From contig CABIKM010000022.1 of the NCBI GenBank assembly GCA_902196205.1, forward strand, positions 62,001 through 126,000: DNA of 64,000 bases, in the 5' to 3' direction. Of the stretch, positions 29,542 to 57,074 are shown piece after piece; positions within the stretch are counted from its first letter, which is position 1; every line of letters begins with the position of its first letter. Source of the stretch: Candidatus Methylomirabilis lanthanidiphila. GTDB lineage: Bacteria > Methylomirabilota > Methylomirabilia > Methylomirabilales > Methylomirabilaceae. The position numbers and the translations under genes were made by a program. Under the pieces are notes generated by a model that was not told the DNA's origin, ran no database searches, and saw only the letters and a program-made list of their open reading frames with translations.

Positions 29542-30576
29542 ATGCAACGCCGTACACGAACGGTACTGATTGGCAGTACGCTATTCTCCATGGTGTTGAG
29601 TCTGTGCGCGACAGGTAGCAACGCCGCAGAACCGTACAAGCTCAAGCTGCCGTCCGGTCTCCAAGAGGACGCGGCGTATATCCCCCCGGACAATCCTCTG
29701 ACGGCCGAGAAGATCAATCTCGGCAAGCAGCTTTATTTCGATAAGCGACTCTCAGCCGATGGAACCGTGGCGTGTGCAAGCTGTCACGCGGCGGACAAAG
29801 GGTTTTCCGATGGCCGCCCCACCTCTACGGGAATCAAAGGACAGGTCGGTGGCCGCAATGCCCCTGTGACGATCAATCGCCTCTTCAGCCAGGAACAGTT
29901 CTGGGATGGCCGGTCTCCGTCGTTGGAAGATCAGGCGCTGGGCCCGGTGCAGAACCCCATCGAGATGGGCCACACATTGCAGGGGATGATTGCCACACTG
30001 GATACGTTGGGGGGATACCGGGAGCAGTTCAAGAAGGCCTTCGGGACAGGGATCACTAAAGAAGGGGTTGCCCAGGCCATCGCATCTTTCGAGCGAACCC
30101 TCCTCTGCGGCAACTCAGCCTTTGACAAGTTCGAGGCCGGGGACAAAAAGGCTCTCACCGCCGGCGCCCAGCGCGGGCTCGCCCTCTTTCGCGGAAAGAA
30201 GGCGAACTGCGTAGCCTGTCACACCGGCTTTAACTTCACCGACGAAAGCTATCACAACCTCGGTGTAGGAATGGACAAGAAGGACCCGGACCTTGGCCGA
30301 TTTAAGGTCACCAAAAAAGAGTCTGAGAAGGGCGCTTTCAAGACGCCGACCCTGCGCAACATCGCCGCCAGCGCGCCCTATTTGCATGACGGCAGCGCCA
30401 AGACGCTGGAAGAGGTGATTGACTTCTACGACAAGGGCGGCACCAAGAATCCGAATCTCTCGAAGGAGATCAAGCCGCTCAAGCTGACGGCCCAGGAAAA
30501 GGGAGATCTGGCAGCGTTCATGAAATCGCTGAGCTGCCCCGATCTCAAGGTCGCCGCGCCTACACTACCGAAGTAA
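29542..30576 (+). CDS. dihaem cytochrome c peroxidase / MauG family, copy 1
   Basis: A 344-residue exported dihaem protein with a signal peptide ending near SNAAEP. It has two CxxCH motifs, CASCH (~residue 78) and CVACH (~residue 225), in the typical two-domain arrangement. Conserved blocks include INRLFSQEQFWDGR, GAFKTPTLRNIA and SAPYLHDGSAKTLEEV. Family members reduce periplasmic hydrogen peroxide or modify protein cofactors (MauG). gggagggacagc precedes ATG 29542. A close paralogue lies 5 kb downstream, and the cupredoxin follows on the same strand. Confidence 0.92.
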   Translation: MQRRTRTVLIGSTLFSMVLSLCATGSNAAEPYKLKLPSGLQEDAAYIPPDNPLTAEKINLGKQLYFDKRLSADGTVACASCHAADKGFSDGRPTSTGIKGQVGGRNAPVTINRLFSQEQFWDGRSPSLEDQALGPVQNPIEMGHTLQGMIATLDTLGGYREQFKKAFGTGITKEGVAQAIASFERTLLCGNSAFDKFEAGDKKALTAGAQRGLALFRGKKANCVACHTGFNFTDESYHNLGVGMDKKDPDLGRFKVTKKESEKGAFKTPTLRNIAASAPYLHDGSAKTLEEVIDFYDKGGTKNPNLSKEIKPLKLTAQEKGDLAAFMKSLSCPDLKVAAPTLPK

Positions 30577-30587
30577 TGAGCGGTTTA

Positions 30588-30658
30588 GACTGAAGGCCGA
30601 AGGCTGTCAGGAATAACCTCCTGCTCCCTTCAGCCTTCAGTCTATCAGTCTATCCACC
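30588..30658. repeat. heptamer repeat locus 11 (GACTGAA / CCTTCAG arms)
   Basis: Left arm 30588-30608: gactgaa, ggccgaa, ggctgtc. Right arm 30631-30658: cagcctt, cagtcta, tcagtct, atccacc. GACTGAAGGC pairs exactly with GCCTTCAGTC, and with one mismatch the stem extends to ~16 bp, so this locus could act as the terminator of peroxidase copy 1. Confidence 0.75.
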
Positions 30659-30812
30659 TGTTTCTCCTCTTCCTACTTCCCCCCTACTTCTTTAACCTCG
30701 CCCTCGCGGCGCTGACGAGCCGCTACCAACGCGTAGACGGCCTGCAGGGATCTTTTCGCTCTCCGCACTGTCGTTATCTCAAGAATTCTTCCGGATCCTC
30801 TTGAGAAAGTTC

Positions 30813-30841
30813 TTGACAAACACTGTTTTAGTCTCTAATTT
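30813..30841 (+). promoter_or_regulatory. sigma-70-like promoter of cupredoxin gene 1
   Basis: TTGACA (30813-30818), a 17-bp spacer and TAATTT (30836-30841) lie 25 bp upstream of ATG 30866. An inverted repeat tctcaaga (30777-30784) / tcttgaga (30799-30806) sits just before the -35 box and could be an activator or repressor site. Confidence 0.6.
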
Positions 30842-30865
30842 TCCGTTTAACAAGGAGGCTGAGCC

Positions 30866-31597
30866 ATGACACTGTCGAGAACGTTCGTCAGCTCTGTCGC
30901 ACTTGCAGTGACTCTCATCACCCTCGCGCTTACGCCTGCCGCCCACTCCTATCAAGAAGTTGCCGTTACCGACGGCGGAACTATCACCGGAACGGTGATC
31001 TTTCAAGGGTCGCCCCCTCCTATGAAACTGATCATTCCCACGAAAGATCAAGAGGTCTGCGGGGGGATTCGCGAGGAACCTCATATTGTCCTGAGCGAGG
31101 ATCAGGGGGTCCGGCATGCCGTCGTGTTTCTGAAGGACGTTCAAAGCGGCAAGGCCTGGGGGCAGCCCGCAAAAATGCCGGACCTGACCAATCTGAAATG
31201 CGACTTCGTGCCTCATGTCCAGGTGGTACCGGTCGGATCGGATCTCGAGATCATCAGCGTCGATGCGGTTCTACACGCCACACACGGGTTCCTGGGAAAA
31301 CGAACCGTCTTCAGCGTCACTCTGCCGAACAAGGGAGACCGGGTCACACGGCCGCTCAAGAAGACCGGGATGGTCCGGGTCGAGTGTGATGCCCACGGCT
31401 GGATGCTGGGGTGGATTTACGTCGCCGATAACCCATACGCGGCTGTCACCGCTCAAGACGGTACGTTCACCATTACGGATGTCCCGCCTGGCGCCTACAC
31501 CCTTGTGGTCTGGCAGGAGTACTTGGGTCTCACTGAGACTCCGGTTACCGTCAAGGCAAAGGATGCCGTATCGGTGAAGATCGAGTTGAACAAATAG
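30866..31597 (+). CDS. periplasmic cupredoxin-like protein with carboxypeptidase-regulatory-like domain, copy 1
   Basis: A 243-residue exported protein with a signal peptide to about SYQEV. The likely type-1 copper ligands are a His in VLHATHGF and the C-x-x-H-x-x-M cluster in VECDAHGWMLGW. The C-terminal third (DGTFTITDVPPGAYTLVVWQ) is a carboxypeptidase-regulatory-like Ig fold. aacaaggaggctgagcc precedes ATG 30866. Probably carries electrons for, or takes them from, the neighbouring c-type haem proteins. A paralogue lies at 38.5 kb beside the bc complex. Confidence 0.82.
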   Translation: MTLSRTFVSSVALAVTLITLALTPAAHSYQEVAVTDGGTITGTVIFQGSPPPMKLIIPTKDQEVCGGIREEPHIVLSEDQGVRHAVVFLKDVQSGKAWGQPAKMPDLTNLKCDFVPHVQVVPVGSDLEIISVDAVLHATHGFLGKRTVFSVTLPNKGDRVTRPLKKTGMVRVECDAHGWMLGWIYVADNPYAAVTAQDGTFTITDVPPGAYTLVVWQEYLGLTETPVTVKAKDAVSVKIELNK

Positions 31598-31642
31598 GCA
31601 ACATCGGAACCTGTGCACAACGACGTGAAGGAGGTTCGTGCC

Positions 31643-32875
31643 ATGGATGATTATAGCCGTGATCGCGATCGACTGAGGCTTCTGAGAACACAGGCAAGGT
31701 TGCTCTGGGCGCGAACCATCGGCTCCTCCCCAGAGGTCGAGAGCCAACGCCGTGATATGGATCGGACCTTGAGACAGGCCGACGAGCGGCCCGACAAGAC
31801 CATGGAGATTACCCGGCGGATGTTCATACACAAATCGTTGCTGGCCGGAGCCGCCGCCGGCGTCGCCTCATCCGGCTGGCTGCCGTGGCTGAACACCATC
31901 GACCTGGCCTTCGGCGCTGACGCCTTCAAATTTGCGTGGATCTCCGATAGCCATCTCTACCCGAAAACCGTCAATACCCGCTTCGTCGATAAGATTACCC
32001 GCGCAGTGAAAGACCTCCAAGCCATGTCTCCGCCTGCTGATTTCCTGATCTACGGGGGCGATCTGGCGCAACTCGGGGATCCCGTCGAACTGGAGTTGGG
32101 GGCCGAGATCCTGAAAGAGGTGACAATCAAAAAGGTCTTCATCCCAGGCGAACACGATTGGTACCTCGATATGGGGCTCAAGTGGGAGAAGCTTTTCGGA
32201 AAATCGACCTGGACCTTCGACCATAAGGGGGTCCGGTTTATCGGGCTTGATACGGTCAGTCGCGGCCCGGACTACTGGACGGCCAAAAAGATGACACCGA
32301 AGGAGCGGATGGGTCACATGGCTACGCTTGACGGGAGCGTAGCCGGCGCGTGGGCCGGTGTCGGCCGCGATCAGCTCGAGTGGCTCGCCCGCACCCTGTC
32401 CGACTGGCCTAAGAACAAGCCGGTCGTAATTTTCACCCACAATCCGCTGTATGAATACTACCCGCCGTGGAACTTCTGGGTGCGGGACTGGCGAGAGGTT
32501 CATGAGGTGCTGAAGCCGTATGCCAACGTGACCAATATACACGGTCATACCCATCAGGTGCTGTACAACGAGATCGGCAAGGTACGGTCGATTGGGATGC
32601 TGGCGACGTCCTGGACCTGGCCATATGCCCCTGAAGGGGTGCCGGCCCTCACCACATGCAAGGTCCGCGTCGATCCCGGCGACCCCTTTGACGGGGTGGG
32701 TTGGTCGAAACTTGCGATCAGCACTGCGGACAAGATCAACAACGACTACGTGATGTGGCGGAAAGATATCCTTGGCGAGGCGCCGTGGGACTCGGGATGC
32801 GCAGACAACACGAATCAGATCCTGAGCCCACGACTGGCCGATCGCGAGTGGCCGTACTATGGGGCATATAAGTAA
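31643..32875 (+). CDS. Tat-exported calcineurin-like metallophosphoesterase
   Basis: A 410-residue protein starting at ATG 31643 (aaggaggttcgtgcc upstream); the frame from GTG 31613 is less likely. The N-terminal ~50 residues are charged, then a Tat signal ITRRMFIHKSLLAG. Dimetal motifs: AWISDSHLY, IYGGDLAQLGD, IPGEHDWYL (GEHD instead of GNHD), VIFTHNPLYE and IHGHTHQVLY. SoxB, the hydrolase of the Sox system, also has this fold and a Tat signal, but this protein lacks the 5'-nucleotidase C-terminal domain. The location next to a SoxYZ-like gene is suggestive only. Confidence 0.85.
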   Translation: MDDYSRDRDRLRLLRTQARLLWARTIGSSPEVESQRRDMDRTLRQADERPDKTMEITRRMFIHKSLLAGAAAGVASSGWLPWLNTIDLAFGADAFKFAWISDSHLYPKTVNTRFVDKITRAVKDLQAMSPPADFLIYGGDLAQLGDPVELELGAEILKEVTIKKVFIPGEHDWYLDMGLKWEKLFGKSTWTFDHKGVRFIGLDTVSRGPDYWTAKKMTPKERMGHMATLDGSVAGAWAGVGRDQLEWLARTLSDWPKNKPVVIFTHNPLYEYYPPWNFWVRDWREVHEVLKPYANVTNIHGHTHQVLYNEIGKVRSIGMLATSWTWPYAPEGVPALTTCKVRVDPGDPFDGVGWSKLAISTADKINNDYVMWRKDILGEAPWDSGCADNTNQILSPRLADREWPYYGAYK

Positions 32876-32911
32876 CTGCCGGCTGGTCATACATCCAAGA
32901 GGAGGACCACG

Positions 32912-33376
32912 ATGAAGCGCCAACATAGTGATATCAGAACCGCATTAGGTGCCTTTCTCCTGGGTCTGCTCCTGGTCGCCGTCTCCGGACCCAGCCAGGC
33001 CCTCGCTCATAAAGCCAAGCACACGCCTGAGCAACTGAAGGCGTTCGAACAGGTCTTCCTGGAACAGGTCAGGATAGGCGACCTCCTGTTCCACGGCGAC
33101 GGCGCCACCCAGAAGCGGTTGGGGGTAACATTGTCCAATACCGGAATGGCATGCGCGATGTGCCATCCCTTTGCGTCGGATACTCACCCGTACACGTTTC
33201 CTAAGTTCCAGGAACAGGTCAATAAGTTTTCCACACTGCGGGATATGATCAACTGGTGCATTGAAAAGGCCGCCGAGGGCGAGAGGATCGAGGACGATTC
33301 AGACGCCATGAAGGCTTTAGAGACATACATCTACTGGTCTACCCGAGGCTCGAAGCTCGACCCGGGACGGCACTAA
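32912..33376 (+). CDS. monohaem c-type cytochrome
   Basis: A 154-residue exported protein with a signal peptide (FLLGLLLVAVSGPSQALAHK) and one haem site, CAMCHPFASDTHPYTFPKFQ. The C-terminal helix pattern STLRDMINWCIEKAAEGERI resembles SoxA/TsdA-type cytochromes, in which a Cys or Met/His near the haem binds the iron. gaggaggaccacg precedes the ATG. It lies between the metallophosphoesterase and the SoxYZ-like gene and is likely cotranscribed. Confidence 0.85.
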   Translation: MKRQHSDIRTALGAFLLGLLLVAVSGPSQALAHKAKHTPEQLKAFEQVFLEQVRIGDLLFHGDGATQKRLGVTLSNTGMACAMCHPFASDTHPYTFPKFQEQVNKFSTLRDMINWCIEKAAEGERIEDDSDAMKALETYIYWSTRGSKLDPGRH

Positions 33377-33400
33377 CCGGAACGGCGCCGCGTAAATCCC

Positions 33401-34285
33401 ATGAGGAAGACAGGTACGCGCACCAACAGTCACGAGCGGGTTACCCAGGGGGCGGCGTCATCGACAGCGTCGAGACGAGTCTTTCTCCGTCTCGCCTCGA
33501 CGCTGATCACCTTGGAGTGGGCCAACATTGCGTTCGCCCTGGAGCCACACACTCCCGGTAGTTCGAATCAGCCGACTCCTCTTGAACAGGCGTATCCGCT
33601 TGCCCTCAAGGTGCCGCCCTTCACCCGCAATGGTGCGAATGTCCCGATCGTTGTCGAAATACGACACCCGATGGAGGCTGACCACTATATCAAGAGCCTT
33701 CAGATCCTGAACGAAACCGATCCGATCCCATCGAAAGGGATTTTTCACCTGAGCCCAGCCAATGGTCGGGCCTATCTGTCAATGCAAGCTCGCATAAACA
33801 GCGGCTCCTCCACGGTACTGGCCGTTGCCGAATGTACCCGACATGGCCGGTGGACGACACGCCAATCCATCACGATTCCTGAAGGAGATGGGGGGTGCGC
33901 AACCGAGACTGAGGAGGACGATCATGTATCGTCGGATGACGGGATCCGTCCGCCGGTTATCCGAATCCCCGAGCTGGTCGAGCGTGGATGGATCGGACGG
34001 GATGAGATCATCCGAGTACAGATGAGCATCAGACACCCGAGCCGGACCGGCTTGACCCATCAAGGCGCGACATTCCGTCAAACCGGCGATCCTTTCTATC
34101 TGAAAGAGATGAAAGTGTTGTATGGGGATCGTCTGGTCAGCCGGTACGAGATGACGCCCGCCATCAGCGATAATCCGTTCATCACCTTTACGTTGAGGGC
34201 GTCGGAACAATCAGCCATCCGGGTTGTCCTCACCAACAGTCGCGGTCAGCAGTTCCAGGCCGCGCAAGAGGTTGTGCTCGCGTAA
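33401..34285 (+). CDS. SoxY-SoxZ fusion-like sulfur carrier protein
   Basis: A 294-residue protein with a Tat-like signal (ASRRVFLRLASTLITLEWAN). Residues ~55-165 resemble SoxY (PLALKVPPFTRNGANVPIVV, HYIKSLQILNE) and end with EGDGGCATE, where the Cys sits as in the SoxY GGC carrier arm. Residues ~185-294 resemble SoxZ (IRVQMSIRHPSRTGLT, FYLKEMKVLYG, FITFTLRA). In two-gene systems SoxYZ carries thiosulfate-derived sulfur; fused relatives often accompany quinoprotein dehydrogenases. SoxAX, SoxCD and canonical SoxB are not seen. Confidence 0.82.
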   Translation: MRKTGTRTNSHERVTQGAASSTASRRVFLRLASTLITLEWANIAFALEPHTPGSSNQPTPLEQAYPLALKVPPFTRNGANVPIVVEIRHPMEADHYIKSLQILNETDPIPSKGIFHLSPANGRAYLSMQARINSGSSTVLAVAECTRHGRWTTRQSITIPEGDGGCATETEEDDHVSSDDGIRPPVIRIPELVERGWIGRDEIIRVQMSIRHPSRTGLTHQGATFRQTGDPFYLKEMKVLYGDRLVSRYEMTPAISDNPFITFTLRASEQSAIRVVLTNSRGQQFQAAQEVVLA

Positions 34286-34330
34286 TCCAGTGTTCTCGGT
34301 TGGACGTTCAATGGAGAGTCAGTGTTCACT

Positions 34331-34430
34331 CTGTCGCCATTCCGTCGAAAGACGGAATCCAGAGTTCCGGATATTTCCCGGATTCCGGCTCACGTTTGCG
34401 ATGCAGGCGTGGCCGGAATGACAGTAGGAA
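34331..34430. repeat. dispersed palindromic intergenic repeat, copy 1
   Basis: A block from cgccattccgtcgaaagacg through ccggattccggctcac to ggccggaatgacag resembles two other intergenic blocks near 43.7 and 44.8 kb. All share GGAATCCAG and a CATTCC/GGAATGAC pair, and two share TATTTCCCGGATT. It precedes peroxidase copy 2. These are probably dispersed REP/MITE-like palindromes. Confidence 0.55.
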
Positions 34431-34498
34431 ATATGCTGCGATAGCGCTTGAATTGTCATACTGAAACGATGGTCCCCTGAAAAACCGGGAGAGAAACA

Positions 34499-35521
34499 AT
34501 GGGACGATGGGCAAAAGGCGCATCGATTATTGTTGTCCTGATTATCGTTGGCGGCATGCTGAGTCGGAGCGTGGCGGAAGGACCGTACAAGCTCACACTC
34601 CCCTTGGGGCTGCAGAAAGAGGCCGCCTACATCCCTCCGGATAATCCACTCACAGCGGAGAAGATCGAACTCGGACGACAACTGTTCTTTGACGGTCGAC
34701 TCTCTGCGGATGGAACCGTATCCTGCGCAACCTGCCACGCGCCGGACAAAGGGTTTTCGGACGGACGGCCGACCTCTGTGGGGATTAAGGGGCAAGTAGG
34801 CGGTCGCAACGCGCCCGCCACAATCAATCGTCTCTTCAGTCAGGAGCAGTTCTGGGATGGCCGGGCCGCCTCGCTGGAAGAGCAGGCGCTGGCTCCGATT
34901 CAGAATCCGATCGAGATGGGAAATACACTGGACGGGATGATTGCGACCGTGTCAGGGATCAAAGGGTACCGAAAACAGTTCAAGCAGGTATTCGGAACTG
35001 ACGTGAATGCAGCGGGGGTGGCGAAGGCTATCGCCGCATTTGAGCGCAGCCTCGTGTGCGGCAATTCGGCATTCGACAGATATGAGGACGGCGACGACGC
35101 AGCGCTCTCGGAGAGTGAGCAGCGAGGACTTGAGATCTTCCGGGAGAGAGGGAATTGCGCACGATGCCATACCGGCTTTGCGTTTACCGATGAGCGGTAC
35201 CACAACATCGGCGTAGGCATGGACAAGTCGAACCCGGATCTCGGACGGTATGGGATTACCAAGAAAGAATCGGATAAGGGAGCGTTCAAGACACCGACCC
35301 TGCGTGATATCGCCGCCAGCGCGCCCTATATGCATGATGGCAGCACCAAGACCCTGGACGACGTAATTGAGTTCTACGATAAGGGCGGCGTCAAGAACCC
35401 CAATCTGTCGAACGAGATCAAACGACTCCTCTTGTCGGCCCCGGAAAAAGCCGACCTCGTGGCGTTCCTGAAGTCGCTGAGCTGCCCTAATCTCAAAGTC
35501 GCCGCACCGGTTGCGAAGTAA
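34499..35521 (+). CDS. dihaem cytochrome c peroxidase / MauG family, copy 2
   Basis: A 340-residue paralogue of the protein at 29.5 kb, alignable end to end. Haem motifs are CATCH (~residue 76) and CARCH (~residue 221); shared blocks include AYIPPDNPLTAEKI, INRLFSQEQFWDGR and GAFKTPTLRDIA. The signal sequence has diverged. gggagagaaaca precedes ATG 34499. The two copies bracket the cupredoxin-phosphoesterase-cytochrome-SoxYZ genes, suggesting duplication of a redox module or division of labour. Confidence 0.92.
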   Translation: MGRWAKGASIIVVLIIVGGMLSRSVAEGPYKLTLPLGLQKEAAYIPPDNPLTAEKIELGRQLFFDGRLSADGTVSCATCHAPDKGFSDGRPTSVGIKGQVGGRNAPATINRLFSQEQFWDGRAASLEEQALAPIQNPIEMGNTLDGMIATVSGIKGYRKQFKQVFGTDVNAAGVAKAIAAFERSLVCGNSAFDRYEDGDDAALSESEQRGLEIFRERGNCARCHTGFAFTDERYHNIGVGMDKSNPDLGRYGITKKESDKGAFKTPTLRDIAASAPYMHDGSTKTLDDVIEFYDKGGVKNPNLSNEIKRLLLSAPEKADLVAFLKSLSCPNLKVAAPVAK

Positions 35522-35539: not shown

Positions 35540-35637
35540 GGCTTTTAGGCTTTTAGGCTTTTAGGGGTAGCACAAGACTATCCTCCTTCAGCCTACTGTC
35601 CTACAGCCTTCAGTCTATTGGCCTATCCGCCTGTCTT
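35540..35637. repeat. heptamer repeat locus 12 (GGCTTTTA arm / CCTNCAG arm)
   Basis: The left arm has three ggctttta units (35540-35563), an 8-bp period unlike the other loci. The right arm returns to 7-bp phase: cagccta, ctgtcct, acagcct, tcagtct, attggcc, tatccgc, ctgtctt (35589-35637). Lies between convergent peroxidase copy 2 and ppdK. Confidence 0.7.
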
Positions 35638-35645
35638 TCCTTGAC

Positions 35646-38303
35646 CTACTTCTCCCCCATCTCCTTAATCTTGACCTTGCCCTTCAGGACGGCATGAGCC
35701 GCCGCCAGCTTGGCAATGGGGACCCGGTACGGCGAGCAGCTCACGTAATCCAGTCCCAGTCGGTGACAGAGTTCGACCGAGCTGGGCTCGCCTCCGTGCT
35801 CGCCGCAGATGCCGATCTCCAACTGTGGCTTGGCCCGCCGTCCTTTCTCTATCCCGATCCGCATGAGCGCGCCCACCCCCTCTTCGTCAAGGGCGGCGAA
35901 GGGATCAGTCTTGAGGATGCCCTTTTCCAGGTAGAGAGGCAGAAACCGGCCGGCGTCGTCCCGCGACAACCCGAAGGTCGTCTGTGTCAGATCGTTTGTC
36001 CCGAAGGAGAAAAAGTCAGCCGCCTCAGCGATCTGATCGGCCACCAACGCCGCCCTGGGCAGCTCGATCATCGTCCCCACAAGGTAGCGGACCTTCACGC
36101 CATATTCCTTCATGACCTCACGACCGACCCTCTCCACGATCTCCCGTTGGGCCCGCAGCTCTTTCACGTCGCTGACGAGGGGGATCATGATCTCCGGGAA
36201 TGGGCGCTTCCCTTCCCGTTTCAGTTCGCATGCCGCCTCAAAGATCGCCCGCGCCTGCATCTCGGTAATCTCCGGATGGCTGATTCCGAGGCGACAGCCG
36301 CGGTGGCCCAGCATCGGGTTGAACTCCTGGAGGTAGCGGACCTTGTCCTTCAGCGCGTCCTCCGATACTCCCATGTTCTCCGCAACTTTTCGGATTTCCT
36401 CGTCTTTCCTCGGAAGGAACTCGTGCAACGGGGGATCCAGGGTCCTGATGATGACAGGGAGGCCGTTCATGAGCTCGAAGATCGCCTTAAAGTCTTGCTT
36501 CTGTATCGGCAGGAGCTTGGCCAGGGCCTTCCGCCGCTCGTCAGCGTTCTCGGCCAGGATCATCTCCCGCACGGCGACGATCCGATCGCCCTCAAAAAAC
36601 ATGTGTTCGGTCCGGCAGAGGCCGATCCCTTCAGCCCCGAACTTCCGCGTGACCCGCGCATCGGTCGGCGTGTCGGCGTTGGTCCTGACGCCGATCTTCC
36701 GAAAGCTGTCCGCCCACCCAATCAGAGAACCAAATTCACCGGTCAGCTCTTCAGGCTGGGTCAGTTCCACCGCTCCGATGATCACATCACCGGTGGTGCC
36801 GTCGATCGTGATCGAATCTCCCCGCCGGATGGTCAGATTTGCGACCTGGAAGTAGCCGTCTTCGTCGTTGACGACGATGTCGGTGCAGCCGGCCACGCAG
36901 GCCTTCCCCATGCCCCGCGCCACGACAGCCGCATGGCTGGTCAGGCCGCCACGAGCCGTGAGAATCCCCTGAGCGGCGACCATGCCCGCGATATCCTCCG
37001 GAGAGGTCTCCGGCCTGACCAGGATCACCTTCTCATGCTGCTCCGCAGCCTCCACCGCCTCCTCCGCCGTGAAGACCGCCTTCCCGACGGCCGCGCCCGG
37101 CGAAGCCGCCAGGCCCTTGGCGATCTTGCGCACCTTGAGCGTCGGATCGATCCTCGGGTGCAACAGTTGCTCGAGTTGCCACGGCTCCACCCGCAGGACG
37201 GCCACCTTTCGGTCGATCAGGCGCTCTTTGGCCATGTCGACCGCGATCTTGATGGCGGCGTGCGCCGTCCGTTTGCCGACGCGGCACTGCAGCATGTAGA
37301 GCGTCCCGTTCTCGATGGTAAACTCGATATCCATCATATCCCGATAATGGCGCTCCAAGGTTCGGCAGATTCGCTCGAACTCCCGGTAGACGCGAGGCCA
37401 CGCCTCTTTCAGATCCGCGATGGGTCGGGGTGTTCTGATGCCCGCCACCACATCTTCCCCTTGAGCATTCTGGAGAAACTCCCCATAGATCCGTCTCTCC
37501 CCCATGGACGGATCGCGGGTGAACGCAACCCCCGTTCCGGAGTCGTCGCCAAGATTGCCGAAGACCATCGCCTGGATATTGACAGCGGTGCCCCAGTCGT
37601 CAGGCACCTTGTAGATCCGGCGGTACTCGATCGCCCGCTTGTTGTGCCAGGATTCGAACACGGCCCCGATCGCCATACGAAGCTGCTCCTGGGGATCCTG
37701 GGGAAAGTCCCGCCCCGCCTCGCGCCGAACCACCTCTTTAAACTGTTCGACCAAGTTCATAAGATCATCGGCGGTCAGATCCGTATCGGCCGTCACCTTT
37801 TTCTGCCGCTTCATGTCGCTGAGGAGTCCCTCGAATGCGATCTTTTTGATGCCCAGCACGACATCCCCGAACATCTGGAGCAGCCGCCGGTAACTGTCGT
37901 AGGCAAAGCGCGGGTTTTGGGAGCGTTGTATGAGGCCCTGGACCGTCTTATCGTTCAATCCCAGGTTCAGTACAGTATCCATCATCCCCGGCATGGAGAT
38001 CCTGGCCCCGGAGCGGACAGAGACCAACAGGGGATCCTTCGGATCGCCGAACCGCTTCCCCATGGCGCGCTCCAGCTTGGCGACCTGTGTCTCGACCTCC
38101 GACCACAGTCCGCGCGGGAAGCGTCGGCCCTGCTTGAAGTACTCGATGCAGGTATCGGTCGAGATGGTGAAGCCTGGCGGCACGGGGATCTTGAGGGCGG
38201 TCATCTCATGGAGGTTCGCCCCCTTGCCCCCGAGAAGATTCTTCTGCTCTGCCCTGCCTTCCGCCCGACCTTTTCCGAAGAAGTATGTATATTTCTTTGC
38301 CAT
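35646..38303 (-). CDS. ppdK: pyruvate, phosphate dikinase
   Basis: An 885-residue PPDK that interconverts pyruvate + ATP + Pi and PEP + AMP + PPi. The order is the N-terminal ATP-grasp domain (KNLLGGKGANLHEMTALKIP), the phosphohistidine domain with GGLTSHAAVVARGMGKACVA (catalytic His, about residue 460), and the C-terminal PEP barrel ending GICGEHGGEPSSVELCHRLG and YVSCSPYRVPIAKLA (catalytic Cys). Length is normal for a bacterial enzyme. It is a single gene with heptamer loci on both sides. It supports gluconeogenic PEP formation in a C1 or fatty-acid-using metabolism. Confidence 0.97.
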   Translation of the reverse strand: MAKKYTYFFGKGRAEGRAEQKNLLGGKGANLHEMTALKIPVPPGFTISTDTCIEYFKQGRRFPRGLWSEVETQVAKLERAMGKRFGDPKDPLLVSVRSGARISMPGMMDTVLNLGLNDKTVQGLIQRSQNPRFAYDSYRRLLQMFGDVVLGIKKIAFEGLLSDMKRQKKVTADTDLTADDLMNLVEQFKEVVRREAGRDFPQDPQEQLRMAIGAVFESWHNKRAIEYRRIYKVPDDWGTAVNIQAMVFGNLGDDSGTGVAFTRDPSMGERRIYGEFLQNAQGEDVVAGIRTPRPIADLKEAWPRVYREFERICRTLERHYRDMMDIEFTIENGTLYMLQCRVGKRTAHAAIKIAVDMAKERLIDRKVAVLRVEPWQLEQLLHPRIDPTLKVRKIAKGLAASPGAAVGKAVFTAEEAVEAAEQHEKVILVRPETSPEDIAGMVAAQGILTARGGLTSHAAVVARGMGKACVAGCTDIVVNDEDGYFQVANLTIRRGDSITIDGTTGDVIIGAVELTQPEELTGEFGSLIGWADSFRKIGVRTNADTPTDARVTRKFGAEGIGLCRTEHMFFEGDRIVAVREMILAENADERRKALAKLLPIQKQDFKAIFELMNGLPVIIRTLDPPLHEFLPRKDEEIRKVAENMGVSEDALKDKVRYLQEFNPMLGHRGCRLGISHPEITEMQARAIFEAACELKREGKRPFPEIMIPLVSDVKELRAQREIVERVGREVMKEYGVKVRYLVGTMIELPRAALVADQIAEAADFFSFGTNDLTQTTFGLSRDDAGRFLPLYLEKGILKTDPFAALDEEGVGALMRIGIEKGRRAKPQLEIGICGEHGGEPSSVELCHRLGLDYVSCSPYRVPIAKLAAAHAVLKGKVKIKEMGEK

Positions 38304-38484: not shown

Positions 38485-39207
38485 CTACTTTGTCAGCTCA
38501 ACAGCAACCTTCGTCTCCTGCTTCGCCTTGACGACGACGTCCTGCACCTTCTTACCGAGCGTCTCCTGCCACACCTCAAGCTTATAGTTGCCCGGTGGAA
38601 CATTGCCGAGCGTGAACTCACCCTTGTCGTTGGTCACCGCCACATACGGATGGTCGGACACAACGAGCCAGCCAAGCATCCAACTGTGGGCATCACAGGT
38701 GACCTTGACAATCTCCGGTTTCGCAAACTTCTCGGTCAGCACCTTCTTGAATTTCGGCTGAGCCTTGTTGATCGAAGAGTTGACCTTGCTGTAGGTGTGA
38801 ATGTTGTGGAGGATCCCGTCATTGTTCAGGATGTCCAGTTCGCCGCCCGCGGGCATGACCACAACATGCGGCTCATAGACGCACCCATTCTGATCCAGTG
38901 TGGCCTTCGTGATCGTCCACTTCTTCCCGTTTTTCACATCGACCAGACTGACCACCGCATTTTCAATCCCCTTGTTCGGACCCACAATGAGATCATAGCT
39001 CAGGTGCTGTTTCTTTCCGCACACCTCTTTGTCTTTCGTAACCTGGAGCTCCTTCCGCGCCGGCGGGGTCCCGACGAACTTGATCGTACCGGTAATCGTC
39101 CCGCCGTCCTTCACCTCGCCGCCCTCATATGCTAAGGCCTGAGTCGCGGTCCCAAGGCAAAAGCTCGCTACTACGGTTACTGCGACTATTTCGCGTATCC
39201 TGCGCAT
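38485..39207 (-). CDS. periplasmic cupredoxin-like protein with carboxypeptidase-regulatory-like domain, copy 2
   Basis: A 240-residue paralogue of the protein at 30.9 kb. The signal peptide ends near TQALAYEG. Putative copper ligands are in GILHNIHTYS and VTCDAHSWMLGW (C-x-x-H-x-x-M). The C-terminal GEFTLGNVPPGNYKLEVWQE is the regulatory-like fold. gaaggaggcgatgctcc precedes ATG 39207. It is the last gene of the Rieske/cytochrome b/octahaem cytochrome run, so it is a good candidate for the soluble electron acceptor or donor of that complex. Confidence 0.82.
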   Translation of the reverse strand: MRRIREIVAVTVVASFCLGTATQALAYEGGEVKDGGTITGTIKFVGTPPARKELQVTKDKEVCGKKQHLSYDLIVGPNKGIENAVVSLVDVKNGKKWTITKATLDQNGCVYEPHVVVMPAGGELDILNNDGILHNIHTYSKVNSSINKAQPKFKKVLTEKFAKPEIVKVTCDAHSWMLGWLVVSDHPYVAVTNDKGEFTLGNVPPGNYKLEVWQETLGKKVQDVVVKAKQETKVAVELTK

Positions 39208-39279: not shown

Positions 39280-41931
39280 TCAGTTCTCGCCCGAACGCAT
39301 CAGGTATTCTGTGATCGCCTGAATCTGCCGGTCCTCCTTCCCCTCGAGGATATCCTCCGGACCGTCCGGATAGTAGCTGGGCATCTTGGTCCCCGGTTGG
39401 ATCTTCTGCGGATCCTTCAGCCACTTGCCGATCCAGATCGGCCGTAAGCGGCGCTTGGCCAGGCTGAGATCAGGGGCCCAATTCTCCGGCGGTCCCTCCG
39501 GTTTTTTCTCGCCCTGCTGGTGACAGGTGAAACAATCAAAGTACTCCTTCGACATCAGCAATCGACCCGCCTTCACGAGTTCCGGGGACGGCTCCCCGAC
39601 CGAGACATACTCGTAGGGCACCTGCTGCTTGCCCATGACTGCGAAGTAGTTCGTCAGGGCGGTGGCTTCCTCGATGCTGAGGCCGAAGGCCGGCATCCGG
39701 ACGTCAAGCCACGGCCTGAGCGGCGTCGGCCGCCCGAGGAATTGATACAGCCAGGTAGCCTGGACCTTCTCCCCTTCATGCATCGTCCCCACCTCGAGGG
39801 GAGGCGGAACCCGGGTTTCGTTGGCATAGTATTGAGCTATTGCGCCGCCCTGCCCCTCGATGACGTGACACCCGTTGCAGTTGTAGCGTTTCACAAGGGT
39901 CCGCCCGTTCTGAATGGCCCGCTCTTCACCGGACAGTCCCCTCTGAAACTGCGGCTGGACACGATCGGCGCTGAGGCTTTTCAGGTAGACCATGAGTGTC
40001 TTTGCCTCGTCATCGGTAAAGCCGAAGTTCGGCATCAACTGCTCCACTCGTTCGGTGGCGTAAATCCTGGGGTTCTTCAGCTTCCAGAACGTGTAATCCT
40101 GCCAGGTCTGCTTCACCTGGACCGCCTCGCCAAAGAACAGCTCCAGCAATCGCTTTCGGCTGAAGTTGCTGAGATCCGGAGCAATCTTCTCCGACGTCTC
40201 AAACCCTTTGATGTCGTGACAGCCAAAACAACCCCGCTTGCGGATCAGACGCTCACCGGCCGCGATTCGCTCGACCCTCCTCACCTCTCGTTCTACACCG
40301 GCAACGGTTTGCTTCTGACCCAGTGTCATCAGGAAGGCGGTGACTGCCCCGGCCTCCTCGTCGGAGAGACGCAGATCAGGCATCCGGGTGGTCGGCCGCA
40401 ACTGCTTCGGATTCTTGAGCCACGCGAACAGCCACTCCGCATTCACCTTGCCGGCTATCTTCGAGAGATCCGGCGCGAAATCCTGATCCTCCGGCGAGGG
40501 AGGAGGGGCAAACGGCGATGTCAGAGTGTGCGCGGGCGAGACGGCGGCGGGAGTGCCGACAGGCGGGGTCTTCGCCTCTATACCTGGGATCCGATGACAA
40601 CCAAGGCAGCCGACCGTACTCACGATCTCTCGTCCACGTTCGACCGAGGCGGGCGCCTTCGGGGCGCTCCCAAGCGCCGGCATGGGCTGGGACGCGCGAA
40701 GCAGATACGCCGCAATGCTCAATGCGTCGTCATCCGACAGATCAAAATGAGGCATCTTCGTCTTGGGCAGGTGCGCTCTTGGCTGCTTAATCCACCGGAC
40801 CAGCCAGCTTGGATCGACCTTACCGGCGATCCGCGTCAAATCCGGCCCCACCTTCTGAATCTTTTCGAACCCCGCTATCGTGTGACAGCCGAAGCAGCCG
40901 AGATCCTCCACCATCTGCCTGCCGCGCGAATAGACAGGCGCCAGCGCAAACTCCTTCTTGTCGGTATGGCACTTCCGGCAGCTCGTCTGCACAAAATCGC
41001 CGCGCAGTAACGGGCGATCCCAGTGGGAGACCTCGCCGTGCGCCGCATCAACCTCGAGCGTCGGCCCCTGTCCCTGATGGCACGATGTACAACCGAACCG
41101 AGCGCTCCGGTGATTGCCCAACAGGATCTCCCGATGCGGATGGGTGCGGAAGGGTTGCTCGGCCTGTTCAAATCCGGGCCGATCGATGGCGAGGTGACAT
41201 GTCGCGCAGCGATCGACAGTCAGAATCGGCACCTTGAACTCATTGGTCGCGAGACCCTCCACCACCATCTGCTTGATCTCTGGAGAACGACCTTCGATTG
41301 ACTCCAGACGTCGCTCAAGGGTAATGACCGGAGCGTTCAACTCCTCGATCCTGCTCTGAATGGTATCCACATCGGTCTGAAACCGCTTGACCCCATCCCG
41401 AGCCTCCTCGACTCGCGCGCTCAGCTTATCCACCTGTGTGGTAAGTTCTCGTAACTTCTCTTCAAGCGCCGCCACCTTGACCCGGAGCTTTGCAGGATCC
41501 TTTTTTTCGTAAACGGCATGCTCCACCCAGTACAGCGTCTCATCCAGTTGGCTCTTGATAAATTGCGCCTGTCTGTTTATCTCTGTATACTCGGCCTCGC
41601 GTTGCGCAAGGAGCTGCTGCACCTTGGCAGACTCGGGTCCGGCCAACCTCGCCTGCGCCGCCTTCAGGTCCTGCTGCAGCTTGGCGAGGGCGACTCGAAC
41701 CTCTGGCGCGTTCAGCTTTGATCGCTCAGCGGCCAGTTCCCGAGTGATCTGTTGGGACTCCAGCCGATTGAACTCTTGCTGATACGCTTTCCATGGACGC
41801 CTGGTCTTTCCCTCATTCCACACTGCCCAGACGGCGACCAGCATAAAGAGCATGCTTGAAATAAAGAACAGGACCCGTAAGGATCGCTGCTCTGCCAGCT
41901 TACTCGTGCGCCACCCGCTCCACGACCGCAC
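39280..41931 (-). CDS. membrane-anchored octahaem cytochrome c with coiled-coil stalk
   Basis: An 883-residue protein with a GTG start at 41931 (gaggatgcctg upstream). Residues ~20-40 form a membrane anchor (RVLFFISSMLFMLVAVWAVW). Residues ~45-215 form a long coiled coil. Eight CxxCH sites follow in order: CATCH (~240), CTSCH (~280), CRKCH (~316), CFGCH (~344), CLGCH (~440), CFGCH (~567), CNGCH (~684) and CFTCH (~798). The C-terminal half looks like several fused cytochrome-c-like domains (PNFGFTDDEAKTLMVYLKSL). It follows cytochrome b subunit IV by 21 bp, so it probably replaces cytochrome c1/f in this complex. Confidence 0.88.
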   Translation of the reverse strand: MRSWSGWRTSKLAEQRSLRVLFFISSMLFMLVAVWAVWNEGKTRRPWKAYQQEFNRLESQQITRELAAERSKLNAPEVRVALAKLQQDLKAAQARLAGPESAKVQQLLAQREAEYTEINRQAQFIKSQLDETLYWVEHAVYEKKDPAKLRVKVAALEEKLRELTTQVDKLSARVEEARDGVKRFQTDVDTIQSRIEELNAPVITLERRLESIEGRSPEIKQMVVEGLATNEFKVPILTVDRCATCHLAIDRPGFEQAEQPFRTHPHREILLGNHRSARFGCTSCHQGQGPTLEVDAAHGEVSHWDRPLLRGDFVQTSCRKCHTDKKEFALAPVYSRGRQMVEDLGCFGCHTIAGFEKIQKVGPDLTRIAGKVDPSWLVRWIKQPRAHLPKTKMPHFDLSDDDALSIAAYLLRASQPMPALGSAPKAPASVERGREIVSTVGCLGCHRIPGIEAKTPPVGTPAAVSPAHTLTSPFAPPPSPEDQDFAPDLSKIAGKVNAEWLFAWLKNPKQLRPTTRMPDLRLSDEEAGAVTAFLMTLGQKQTVAGVEREVRRVERIAAGERLIRKRGCFGCHDIKGFETSEKIAPDLSNFSRKRLLELFFGEAVQVKQTWQDYTFWKLKNPRIYATERVEQLMPNFGFTDDEAKTLMVYLKSLSADRVQPQFQRGLSGEERAIQNGRTLVKRYNCNGCHVIEGQGGAIAQYYANETRVPPPLEVGTMHEGEKVQATWLYQFLGRPTPLRPWLDVRMPAFGLSIEEATALTNYFAVMGKQQVPYEYVSVGEPSPELVKAGRLLMSKEYFDCFTCHQQGEKKPEGPPENWAPDLSLAKRRLRPIWIGKWLKDPQKIQPGTKMPSYYPDGPEDILEGKEDRQIQAITEYLMRSGEN

Positions 41932-41952
41932 CAGGCATCCTCGACTGTGGCG

Positions 41953-42762
41953 TTAAATATTGAACCAGGGTGTCACCCAGATATTCTGGATGTTAAATGC
42001 CAGACGCAGAAACATCTTAATCGGAAGGCTCATCATCGTCAGAAAGAGGAAGGCCACGATCCCGTAACGCACAGGACCTAACTGACGGATCGTCTCGCTC
42101 ATATCCCGTTTGACATAGTAAAATACGAACGCCGTACTGGAGTAGAGCGCAATCAGCACGAACCCGATCACCTCGATCCCGAAGATCTTTGGATTACCCA
42201 TCCACTTGAACGGACCCCACGCCGGCAGATCGATATTGGTCAGCGCAATCACCATATGGGGATCCCACGTCTCCCACGGCCAGAAGAGGTTCCAGCCAGG
42301 GCCTCTGAAGAATACGCCTGTAATGATAAGCGAGATCCACAGAAAGAAAAAGCCGAAGAGAAACGTCGTGATCGCGAAGGGACGCTCTTTGAAGGTGTAA
42401 TATCCGTTACCTTTAGGATTGATATCGACGTATGGGATCACCATGAGCCCAACGATGATCAGGCTGGGTAGAACAACACCGGCAAACCAGGGATCGAAAT
42501 AGACCAGCATCTCCTGAAGTCCCAGAAAATACCATGGCGCCTTACTTGGATTGGGGGTCTGCGTCGGATTAGCCGGCTCCTCCAGGGGCGCATCAATGAC
42601 GATCGACCAGACAGTCAGAATCACCATGACAATGATCGAACAGATGAACTCGTTGCGGACGAGGTAGGGCCAGACATGGACCCTATCGGCCACTATGGGT
42701 TCTTTCGCGCCGCTAGATTGCGCGCTCGGTTTTGGCGTCGTGTTTTCTTTTACGTCAGCCAT
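41953..42762 (-). CDS. cytochrome b C-terminal half (subunit IV/QcrC-like)
   Basis: A 269-residue membrane protein with about four to five helices, matching the C-terminal part of cytochrome b as a separate subunit, as in b6f complexes and Bacillus QcrC. The quinol-oxidation loop reads KAPWYFLGLQEMLVYFDPWF, with APWY in place of the PEWY motif of mitochondrial-type enzymes. An extra helix pair is present at the C-terminus. It is 71 bp downstream of the N-terminal half, with heptamer repeats in between. Confidence 0.9.
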   Translation of the reverse strand: MADVKENTTPKPSAQSSGAKEPIVADRVHVWPYLVRNEFICSIIVMVILTVWSIVIDAPLEEPANPTQTPNPSKAPWYFLGLQEMLVYFDPWFAGVVLPSLIIVGLMVIPYVDINPKGNGYYTFKERPFAITTFLFGFFFLWISLIITGVFFRGPGWNLFWPWETWDPHMVIALTNIDLPAWGPFKWMGNPKIFGIEVIGFVLIALYSSTAFVFYYVKRDMSETIRQLGPVRYGIVAFLFLTMMSLPIKMFLRLAFNIQNIWVTPWFNI

Positions 42763-42796
42763 CGCCTCGCTCGTCGGTTGTGATTAGCTCCTCTTC

Positions 42797-42831
42797 ACTC
42801 ACCACTATCCACTGATCACTCACCACTTGAT
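42797..42831. repeat. heptamer repeat locus 14 (ACTCACC type) inside the bc operon
   Basis: Five 7-bp units: actcacc, actatcc, actgatc, actcacc, acttgat. Single arm. It fills the short gap between the two cytochrome b genes, so it must be transcribed within the operon. Confidence 0.7.
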
Positions 42832-42833
42832 TA

Positions 42834-43604
42834 CTATAACGGCCCAGAGATCCCCCCGTCTTTCCTGATCCTCCAGAAATGCACGATCATGAGGAGGCTG
42901 ATCAGAATCGGTAAGAAGATACAGTGCAGCACGTAAAATCTGAGGAGTGCGGGAGGTCCAACAAGGGTACCGCCCAGCAGGAACGCCCTGGCATCATACC
43001 GCGGGGTCACGCCGACCACCTCGCCGAAAGGACCCTCACTCCCTACGAACGGAGTCGCCCTGGCCATATTGGTCCCCACCGTGACGGCCCAAATCGAAAG
43101 CTGATCCCACGGCAGCAGGTAGCCGGTAAAACTCAACAACAGCGTGATAGTCAGCAGGACGACACCGAGGACCCAGTTGAACTCTCTCGGTGGCTTGTAT
43201 GAGCCGGTCATGAACACGCGGAACATGTGCAGCCAGACGGTAATCACCATGCCGTGGGCCGCCCACCGATGCATGTTGCGCATAATCATACCGAACGGGA
43301 CATCGTATTGGAGGTATTTCATATCGGCATAGGCGTACTCTGCTACCGGGCGATAGTAGAACATCAGGATGACACCGGTCACGACCGTCACCAGAAACAT
43401 CAGAAAGGTAATGCCGCCCATGCACCAGGTAAAGCGGATCTTGATGGCGTGGCGTCGGATCTTGGGCGGGTGCAGGTGGAGCCAGACGTTCGCCATGATC
43501 TGGAGCACCCGGTTGCGCGGCGTATCCGGATAATCGTGGCGAAACATCGAGCGCCAAAGCTGCGACTCGACGATCCTTTTCTTCAACTCGTTCAGGTTGG
43601 GCAT
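42834..43604 (-). CDS. cytochrome b N-terminal half (b6-like)
   Basis: A 256-residue four-helix cytochrome b carrying the two b haems. Ligand histidines lie in [20 protein letters not shown] (helix B) and [20 protein letters not shown] (helix D). [20 protein letters not shown] is the conserved quinone-site segment. Together with the Rieske protein upstream and subunit IV downstream it builds a quinol:electron-carrier oxidoreductase that pumps protons by a Q cycle. Confidence 0.93.
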
Positions 43605-43679
43605 TCAGAATCGTATCCTCTCACCGCGCCCCTTAGAACGACCCTAGCGTCCTGTTTCCAAAAATTGTTATATATTGTG

Positions 43680-43795
43680 GACGTCATTCCGCCCCCGATC
43701 AGGTCGGGGGCCGCATAGCGGGCGCGAGCCGGAATCCAGGAAAGAGCAGCGGTTCTGGCTTCCCGCTTTCGCAGGAATGACGATACAGAGGACAC
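43680..43795. repeat. dispersed palindromic intergenic repeat, copy 2
   Basis: A block with cgtcattccgcccccgatca, ggtcgggggc, gagccggaatccag and gcaggaatgacg contains two nested inverted repeats. It shares GGAATCCAG and the CATTCC/GGAATGAC borders with the copy at 34.3 kb. It lies between the Rieske gene and the cytochrome b gene, both on minus. Confidence 0.55.
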
Positions 43796-43827
43796 CGACG
43801 CGTTCCTCTAACTTCTGGCTCACGACA

Positions 43828-44421
43828 CTAGACCTTGAGTTTGAGAAACGCCCCAGGTTTGGTCCAGTCGCCTCGCTCGAAGCGAAACTGCACGCTCTTG
43901 TCGATCTCAAGCTGCCCGTCGTCGCTCAGCGTGATCTTGACCCGCTCCAATGGCCGAGGGGCGGGACCCTCGAAGTTGACCCCGGTCCTCCGGAAGCCGC
44001 TGCCGTGGCAGGGGCACTTGAACTTATTCTCCGCATTCAGCCAGTTGGGGGTGCAGCCGAGATGCGTGCAGACTGCCAGGAGCGCGTAAAACCCGTCGGG
44101 TTCATGGACGATCCAGACGCGTTCCTCCTGTTTCCACCGTTCGCTGACGGTGCCGACCGGATACTCTTCCGGCAGGCCGGCCTTAAAGACCGCAGCCGGC
44201 TCGAAAAGCACCCGGGGAAACATAAAGCGCCCGAACGCTACGCCGCCGATACCAAGCCCGGCCGCTATCCCGCACCATCCTGCAAGACAAAACACATCGC
44301 GCCGCGACCAGAGGGTCGCCCCGCTCTCCTCCGGCGTCGCGATCACCGGCTCTTCTCGATCCCCTCCGGTACTACTCTGATCTGCCACTACCTCCCCCGC
44401 CGCGACGATCGATACTGTCAC
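43828..44421 (-). CDS. Rieske [2Fe-2S] protein
   Basis: A 197-residue membrane-anchored Rieske protein. Cluster ligands are in VCTHLGCTPNW and CPCHGSGF. The N-terminus has a Tat-like twin Arg followed by a hydrophobic anchor (SRRDVFCLAGWCGIAAGLGI). It starts at GTG 44421, three bases after a possible small ORF. It transfers electrons from quinol to the high-potential chain and is the first conventional gene of the bc operon. Confidence 0.93.
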   Translation of the reverse strand: MTVSIVAAGEVVADQSSTGGDREEPVIATPEESGATLWSRRDVFCLAGWCGIAAGLGIGGVAFGRFMFPRVLFEPAAVFKAGLPEEYPVGTVSERWKQEERVWIVHEPDGFYALLAVCTHLGCTPNWLNAENKFKCPCHGSGFRRTGVNFEGPAPRPLERVKITLSDDGQLEIDKSVQFRFERGDWTKPGAFLKLKV

Positions 44422-45750: not shown

Positions 45751-45952
45751 TTCGTTCGTAGCCCATTGTAATCGAATTCAGGGGCATCATGCCTACCTTA
45801 TAATCAGCGAGATTGCGGACTGCCCATTTCGTAGTCATCCAAGAGTCAGGTGAATGGTCAGCCAAGTCCTGAATCACTCATCGTGACGCCTGCCAGGCCG
45901 GATTCTTCGGTAGTTCCAAGCGTTTCTGCACAAATGAATTACAATCAGTCGT
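45751..45952. other. intergenic region upstream of the amtB1 promoter
   Basis: No gene is supported here. The open frame that runs from 45850 into amtB1 is a non-coding extension: it has no ribosome-binding site and spans the sigma-54 promoter. No clear NtrC or NifA upstream activator site (GCAC/GTGC or TGT-N10-ACA) was found by eye. Confidence 0.5.
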
Positions 45953-45968
45953 TGGCACGGAAACTGCT
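45953..45968 (+). promoter_or_regulatory. sigma-54 promoter of amtB1
   Basis: TGGCACGGAAACTGCT matches the -24/-12 consensus TGGCACG-N4-TTGCW at all but one position, with GG and GC separated by exactly 10 bp. It lies ~95 bp upstream of the amtB1 ATG and fits nitrogen-controlled transcription. Confidence 0.8.
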
Positions 45969-46062
45969 CGCTTCTACTCTTTCGATGTATTCTTACAAAA
46001 ATGTCGGGTTCAACACCGTTGCAGGTTCCCTACATTTCCCTACACCACAACAAGGAGTAGCC

Positions 46063-57022: not shown

Positions 57023-57074
57023 CGAATCCTACAGCGGCGTGAGGACGCGCCCTGAAGACAGTAAGGAGGAAGCG

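Follow-up and report, generated by a model that had tools for sequence, protein, structure and literature searches.

The 64,000-nucleotide stretch of Candidatus Methylomirabilis lanthanidiphila analysed here (the window; contig CABIKM010000022.1, positions 62,001 to 126,000) carries six genes for exported proteins in line at 29542-35521. Four of them form a compact group encoding, in order, a cupredoxin, a metallophosphoesterase exported by twin-arginine translocation (Tat), a monohaem cytochrome of the SoxA/TsdA type and a SoxY-SoxZ fusion (SoxYZ), with intergenic gaps of 46, 37 and 25 bp. Two genes for MauG-like di-haem proteins stand 290 and 214 bp away, one on each side. This is the line of genes given in the original prediction, which was made from the sequence alone, and all six open reading frames were found in place (Table 1). 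The host assembly (3.05 Mb, 99.98% complete) belongs to the methane-oxidising Methylomirabilis group; the named relatives of the host are Methylomirabilis and Rokubacteria. As read from the sequence, GGAGG- or AGGAGG-type sites precede the starts of the cupredoxin, phosphoesterase and cytochrome genes, and the start codon of the phosphoesterase was corrected to the ATG at 31643.

The conserved core and its proteins

Using the phosphoesterase as query, we scanned 84,980 species genomes and recovered 80 loci, whose gene order was read by tblastn (L-numbers below label the relatives' genomes or loci). These loci are distributed over Methylomirabilota, Proteobacteria, Nitrospirae, SAR324, Tectomicrobia, Binatia and others, with phosphoesterase identity of about 60-90% across phyla. 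In 78/79 loci the phosphoesterase gene is immediately preceded by the cupredoxin gene, and in 76/76 it is immediately followed by the cytochrome gene; ccoN of a divergent cbb3-type oxidase lies within the stretch in 57/61, whereas a SoxYZ fusion directly follows in 18/72. Given these counts, the conserved core is a three-gene unit (cupredoxin, phosphoesterase, cytochrome) of an oxidase cluster, to which SoxYZ has been added as a partner in some lineages. Absence of linkage in relatives, looked for as a refutation, did not occur; of the six genes whose conservation was to be compared, linkage held for these three and did not extend to the MauG pair or, beyond the 18 loci, to SoxYZ. In the NC10 relatives, phosphoesterase, cytochrome and SoxYZ occur together.

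Against TIGR00780 (cut-off 583) the L102 oxidase subunit reaches 240 bits, and that of L107 aligns to a cbb3 CcoN of known structure, with the active-site helix Tyr and the His-His pair kept. No such CcoN was found in the genus Methylomirabilis, where the best match had an E value of 5e-6 versus 1e-200 elsewhere. The SoxYZ-bearing unit is kept in 7 of 15 Methylomirabilis genomes, and the phosphoesterase is still 87-89% identical in genomes of the genus without the oxidase. Since the core is present in cultivated genera (Bradyrhizobium, Mesorhizobium, Cupriavidus, Thiocapsa and Methylobacterium), its knockout is feasible. Two gammaproteobacterial clusters (L109 and L117) have the cupredoxin gene in duplicate, and their ccoN and ccoO genes stand in a rearranged order.

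Table 1. Features of the six-gene locus (positions in the window)
Feature	Position	Strand	Remarks
MauG/MbnH-like di-haem protein 1	29542..30576	+	Tyr at axial position (FYDKGG); variable flank of core
Degenerate copy of the pyruvate phosphate dikinase gene 3' end and 3' flank	30627..30707	-	Intact copy 35600-35680
Exported cupredoxin-like protein, 243 aa, C-terminal CarboxypepD_reg domain	30866..31597	+	Type-1 Cu ligand set H137, C174, H177, M180
Tat-exported metallophosphoesterase-fold protein, 410 aa	31643..32875	+	Metallophos match, metal motifs
Exported monohaem cytochrome c, SoxA/TsdA domain family	32912..33376	+	C81AMC84H85, Cys116
Tat-exported SoxY-SoxZ fusion, 294 aa	33401..34285	+	Cys166 (GGC), superoxide-reductase-like ligands
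MauG/MbnH-like di-haem protein 2	34499..35521	+	Paralogue of first, 71-74% identical; variable flank

The cupredoxin proposed for the block has a complete set of type-1 copper ligands, at least 97% conserved in 89 sequences. The protein also has a CarboxypepD_reg domain; scored against cupredoxin families it gave no match. The phosphoesterase matches Metallophos (Pfam E 3.5e-11) and carries the metal motifs D102xH104, G139D140, GEHD at 169-172, H266 and H300GH302xH304; every relative examined has Glu170 in the place of the GNHD Asn, including a 48%-identical paralogue in L141. In the alignment of relatives, R58 of the Tat motif is invariant and R59 nearly so, and many Trp residues are invariant. 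Its closest solved folds and sequence matches are GpdQ, Rv0805 and purple acid phosphatase, with a weak predicted model (pLDDT 59; C-terminal 90 residues unreliable). Of the SoxB-fold hydrolase with Tat signal that had been proposed, the Tat signal stands and the SoxB fold does not, SoxB being shared at superfamily level only.

The cytochrome matches SoxA-TsdA_cyt-c (E 5e-10) and has one CXXCH motif in 154 aa, in agreement with the monohaem SoxA/TsdA-like protein first described. A profile search retrieved SoxA at 4.7e-8 and TsdA at 1.6e-4, and the score against the SoxA equivalog TIGR04484 is 32.5 bits, under the cut-off of 110. It is the sole match to this domain in the host genome. C81, C84, H85 and Cys116 are invariant, and Cys116 aligns to a Cys of the SoxA haem domain and to Cys96 of TsdA, the axial ligand of the catalytic haem there. 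Ligation of the haem by His85 and Cys116 is predicted.

Both di-haem proteins match CCP_MauG, with Pfam E values of 2.8e-59 for the first and 7.5e-62 for the second, and have two CXXCH motifs each. They score 262-264 bits against MauG TIGR03791 (cut-off 443.85) and 259-264 bits against MbnH TIGR04039 (cut-off 362.85). Both have the MauG/MbnH-type Tyr at the axial ligand position, within FYDKGG, where a relative in L091 has a Met nearby instead. The second gene is present in some relatives and absent next to the cluster in L030 and L040. The two MauG/CcpA-type proteins are there as proposed without being conserved members of the block. An iodate reductase role for the pair was dropped, no idrAB-like gene being seen in the block; M. 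iodofontis has idrP1/P2 peroxidases, and its iodate reductase genes are reported to give no significant matches in other Methylomirabilis genomes (PMC10989891).

A superoxide-reductase-like ligand set in SoxYZ

The fusion protein matches SoxY (E 8.1e-20) and SoxZ (E 1.3e-15), and its carrier-arm Cys166 and the preceding Gly165 are invariant in 25/25 SoxYZ sequences, the carrier Cys also being present in a further phylum set. The fused SoxYZ with a GGC-type carrier cysteine is thereby borne out, and loss of the carrier Cys in orthologues, looked for as a refutation, was not seen. The original prediction did not mention that the SoxY half also matches Desulfoferrodoxin (PF01880, E 1.7e-8). This match occurs in 23/25 aligned SoxYZ sequences and in 0/4 canonical-type SoxY or SoxYZ proteins.

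The superoxide reductase (SOR) ligand set of the SoxYZ clade is His, His, His, Cys, His, near the invariant carrier Cys. In the window protein four of the five centre II ligands are present (His89, His95, Cys145 and His148), and the first His is replaced by Tyr65. The complete set occurs in 11/23 SOR-type alignment rows, and L037, L107 and L053 are among the relatives with five of five; Tyr occupies the first place in 6/6 Methylomirabilis rows and His in most relatives outside that genus. SOR chains were recovered from the PDB at 2.8e-8 with a profile and at 3.6e-9 with the L037 relative. For that relative, phmmer placed the Ignicoccus superoxide reductase (3.6e-9) ahead of SoxY (0.013), in an alignment that pairs the first His, HP, H and C-x2-HG. 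The predicted SoxYZ model (pLDDT 84) puts His89 and His95 in one inter-strand loop and Cys145 and His148 at another, a statement about topology only. In an unrooted FastTree phylogeny, 36 SOR-type SoxY domains fall apart from 19 others with support of 0.996. In Foldseek, antibody Ig folds dominated the top list for the model (root-mean-square deviation >15), the Paracoccus SoxYZ rows, with TMt of 0.75-0.91, were the only informative ones, and no SOR was among the best 50 rows.

It is quite possible, if still short of probable, that this is a SoxY-SoxZ fusion family keeping an SOR-type mononuclear metal site beside its sulfur-carrying Cys. Such a family would link SOR and SoxY, and would be a two-site sulfur carrier with its own redox chemistry inside a multi-phylum respiratory module (cupredoxin, GEHD phosphoesterase, Cys-ligated cytochrome) coupled to a divergent cbb3-type oxidase. 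If the site holds metal, SoxY and superoxide reductase would belong to a single family of which an intermediate form is available, and the origin of SoxY would be directly testable. No paper joining the two proteins was found among the open-access papers searched.

Rokubacteria (L037:1364-2107, L168-L175 and L177) have a second SOR-type SoxYZ subtype, with the first-ligand His in most, that occurs without the cupredoxin-phosphoesterase-cytochrome core. In several loci it lies near MoeA, a YncE-type beta-propeller and a Sulf_transp gene; the latter (YeeE-type) was seen in the three loci checked. A YVTN-type beta-propeller gene also recurs beside the cluster and beside SOR-type SoxYZ (L030, L031, L040, L105, L107 and L143). 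The viral contigs searched contained no SoxYZ relatives.

A proposed Sox-like module and its alternatives

In the Sox pathway and its relatives, Cys-ligated haem proteins of the SoxA/TsdA family couple a sulfur species either to a thiol, as SoxA does, or to another thiosulfate, as TsdA does. The arm Cys of SoxYZ carries sulfur species, and the binuclear hydrolase SoxB frees the oxidised end. All three roles are represented at our locus by non-canonical proteins, and for this reason we place a sulfur-carrier pathway first. Our preferred reading, which comes close to probable without reaching it, is a Sox-like periplasmic sulfur-carrier and electron-transfer module that originally fed a divergent cbb3-type oxidase and has persisted in Methylomirabilis in its absence. 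The cytochrome, with its predicted His85/Cys116-ligated haem, and the metallophosphoesterase would work with SoxYZ as a swinging-arm carrier. A reduced inorganic sulfur species would most likely be joined oxidatively to Cys166 at the Cys-ligated haem and then freed by the phosphoesterase through hydrolysis. Electrons would exit via the cytochrome and the cupredoxin, to the co-encoded oxidase in most bacteria and to another acceptor in Methylomirabilis; the bc1-type operon there, which has a cupredoxin paralogue next to it, is 3 kb from the cluster. Beside its carrier function, the SoxY half would have a second, SOR-like metal site. In Methylomirabilis, a methanotroph that generates its own oxygen, the module would be an additional and unsuspected route for electrons in the periplasm.

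Gene linkage in relatives gives this reading a sulfur context. Four rhizobial genomes (L144-L147) have cupredoxin, phosphoesterase, cytochrome, ccoN, ccoO, ccoQ, DsbD_2 and CcoI in this order, and the cluster ends on the other strand with flavocytochrome c sulfide dehydrogenase (FCSD), a cytochrome c and SoxY. This SoxY is the genome's only one in three of the four, SCO lies upstream of the cluster in three, and FCSD was confirmed in an Ensifer relative by PF21706 and PF09242. An SOR-type SoxYZ sits directly downstream of the core in Methylomirabilota, Binatia, Tectomicrobia and others; a canonical-type SoxYZ takes the same place in L095, and SoxY and SoxZ lie just downstream of CcoI in L084. 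The carrier has thus been recruited to the cluster independently as SOR-type SoxYZ, as the L095 canonical type, in L084 and as the rhizobial FCSD-cytochrome-SoxY set. Also in favour, 20 of 25 core genomes without an adjacent SOR-type SoxYZ have a SoxY gene versus 0 of 14 control genomes, and a Sulf_transp gene lies near the second SOR-type SoxYZ subtype of Rokubacteria in the three loci checked.

Several observations weigh against a sulfur pathway. The 14 control genomes were not lifestyle-matched, and in the other five of the 25 core genomes SoxY gave no match. Two other Methylomirabilis genomes carry, at the site of the cluster, a diverged cassette that has the phosphoesterase and cytochrome without SoxYZ; together with the five genomes, this means that SoxYZ is not obligatory. 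The phosphoesterase falls outside the SoxB clade. In the host genome, SoxB (TIGR04486) and SoxC (TIGR04555) gave no match at E <= 0.001, and FCSD gave none. The predicted lack of SoxCD, canonical SoxB and a SoxAX pair therefore agrees with the genome for SoxB and SoxC and with the block for SoxX, of which none was seen there, no genome-wide search aimed at SoxX having been made. As for the separate periplasmic sulfur or cofactor-maturation pathway with its own electron outlet that had been proposed, a redox block without SoxB or SoxC, the invariant Cys166 and the linkage speak for it, while the unit proves to be cupredoxin, phosphoesterase and cytochrome beside an oxidase.

Because the core also occurs without any SoxY, we hold the sulfur-carrier reading only tentatively and regard one alternative, biogenesis, as unlikely rather than negligible. 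The cupredoxin, phosphoesterase and cytochrome might serve in the assembly or metallation of a haem-copper oxidase or of another haem or Cu complex, with SoxYZ as a thiol-redox helper. The core lies beside ccoN-ccoO-CcoI-DsbD_2, in rhizobia also with SCO, ALAS and GroEL; the window locus adjoins haem-A/haem-O synthase genes (COX15 and UbiA) and a bc1-type operon; and the core is retained where SoxY is absent. However, the Methylomirabilis phosphoesterase is kept at 87-89% identity without the oxidase, and to our knowledge the SoxA/TsdA-type Cys and the carrier Cys are atypical of known oxidase chaperones. The SOR ligand set and the PDB matches could instead point to reactive-oxygen or nitric oxide defence, in which the SoxY site would reduce superoxide or nitric oxide with electrons from the cytochrome and cupredoxin and the two flanking di-haem proteins would clear peroxide. 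We consider this rather improbable: the place of the first His is taken by Tyr65 in the window protein and by Tyr in all six Methylomirabilis sequences of the alignment, the di-haem proteins have the MauG-type Tyr, not the Met of the cytochrome c peroxidase type, and are not conserved with the core, and the carrier Cys is invariant though SOR needs none.

The same MauG/MbnH-type Tyr would suit a maturation role: the di-haem enzymes would build a protein-derived cofactor by oxidising Trp residues in the Trp-rich phosphoesterase, an enzyme served by the remaining genes. In L141 and L142, too, a MauG-like gene stands ahead of the phosphoesterase and cytochrome genes of the diverged cassette, and the phosphoesterase has its many invariant Trp; with the MauG gene missing at nearly all core loci outside Methylomirabilis, we find such a role very doubtful. 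A carrier associated with a quinoprotein of the methanol dehydrogenase type, raised as an alternative in the original prediction, is barely credible. TIGR04557 is the best NCBIfam match of SoxYZ, but its 105.7 bits lie under the cut-off of 140 (relatives score 85-109), the sole pyrroloquinoline quinone (PQQ) alcohol dehydrogenase is on another contig (C14, the cluster being on C22), and no PQQ dehydrogenase gene was seen in the relatives' clusters examined. No function for the core was found in the literature, nor any paper on the cluster (searched as SoxYZ/metallophosphoesterase/MauG, cbb3/cupredoxin, sulfide dehydrogenase/cbb3 and Methylomirabilis with SoxYZ or MauG), which is weak evidence as most subscription papers were not covered.

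Locus history, surroundings and known systems

One flank of the locus carries the COX15 and UbiA-type haem synthase genes, and the other pyruvate phosphate dikinase (35646-38303, minus strand), a second cupredoxin-like gene and a Rieske/cytochrome b/multihaem operon. In L141 and L142 the same site, between COX15, mauG1 (the first di-haem gene) and the dikinase as read in L141, holds a different cassette of a MauG-like gene, a phosphoesterase (49%) and a SoxA-like cytochrome (45%), in which SoxYZ is lacking and no cupredoxin is adjacent; the L141 gene at the mauG1 site is 89% identical. In the window, mauG1 is followed by a degenerate dikinase 3' end (VYALVAARQRREGEVKEVGGK* versus KLAAAHAVLKGKVKIKEMGEK*), probably the scar of the event that placed the cassette. 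On the simplest reading, mauG1 and the dikinase were formerly neighbours, and the cassette with the second di-haem gene was inserted by recombination at the dikinase end. Redox cassettes seem to be exchanged in the mauG1-dikinase interval.

Beyond the dikinase, on the minus strand, a second cupredoxin/CarboxypepD_reg paralogue (38485-39207) lies beside the bc1-type operon (39280-44421), which has an unusual 883-aa multihaem cytochrome c subunit, a split cytochrome b and a Rieske protein. Two ammonium-transporter-like genes (45850-47436 and 57039-58616), each followed by a regulator-like gene, were read by eye. An Rfam search of 24000-46000 gave no match, and a promoter and terminator scan gave fewer matches in the real sequence than in shuffles.

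Compared with the Sox system (SoxXA, SoxYZ, SoxB and SoxCD), the cluster shares the arm-Cys carrier, a SoxA/TsdA-type haem protein with the axial-Cys position, a hydrolase of the metallophosphoesterase superfamily and Tat/Sec export. It differs in that SoxB and SoxC were not found in the host, the cytochrome has one haem domain, the hydrolase is of another clade, and SoxYZ is fused with a second metal-like site and has a cupredoxin partner and, elsewhere, a cbb3-type oxidase. The quinoprotein dehydrogenase-associated carrier TIGR04557 is likewise a SoxY-SoxZ fusion with a single arm Cys, but the cluster protein scores under its cut-off, is unlinked to a PQQ dehydrogenase and has SOR-like ligands that are absent in the canonical-type SoxY compared. 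The CXXCH and the Cys aligned to axial Cys96 are shared with the haem-1 domain of the thiosulfate dehydrogenase TsdA, from which the cytochrome differs in its one haem domain. GpdQ and Rv0805 phosphodiesterases are the best fold and sequence matches of the phosphoesterase, which unlike them is Tat-exported and has GEHD in place of GNHD in all relatives examined. With superoxide reductase/neelaredoxin (PF01880, centre II), SoxYZ shares His-x5-His and Cys-x2-His on matching strands of an Ig-like fold, and in many relatives the first His, while differing in its SoxY arm Cys, its SoxZ domain and, in the window, the Tyr at the first His.

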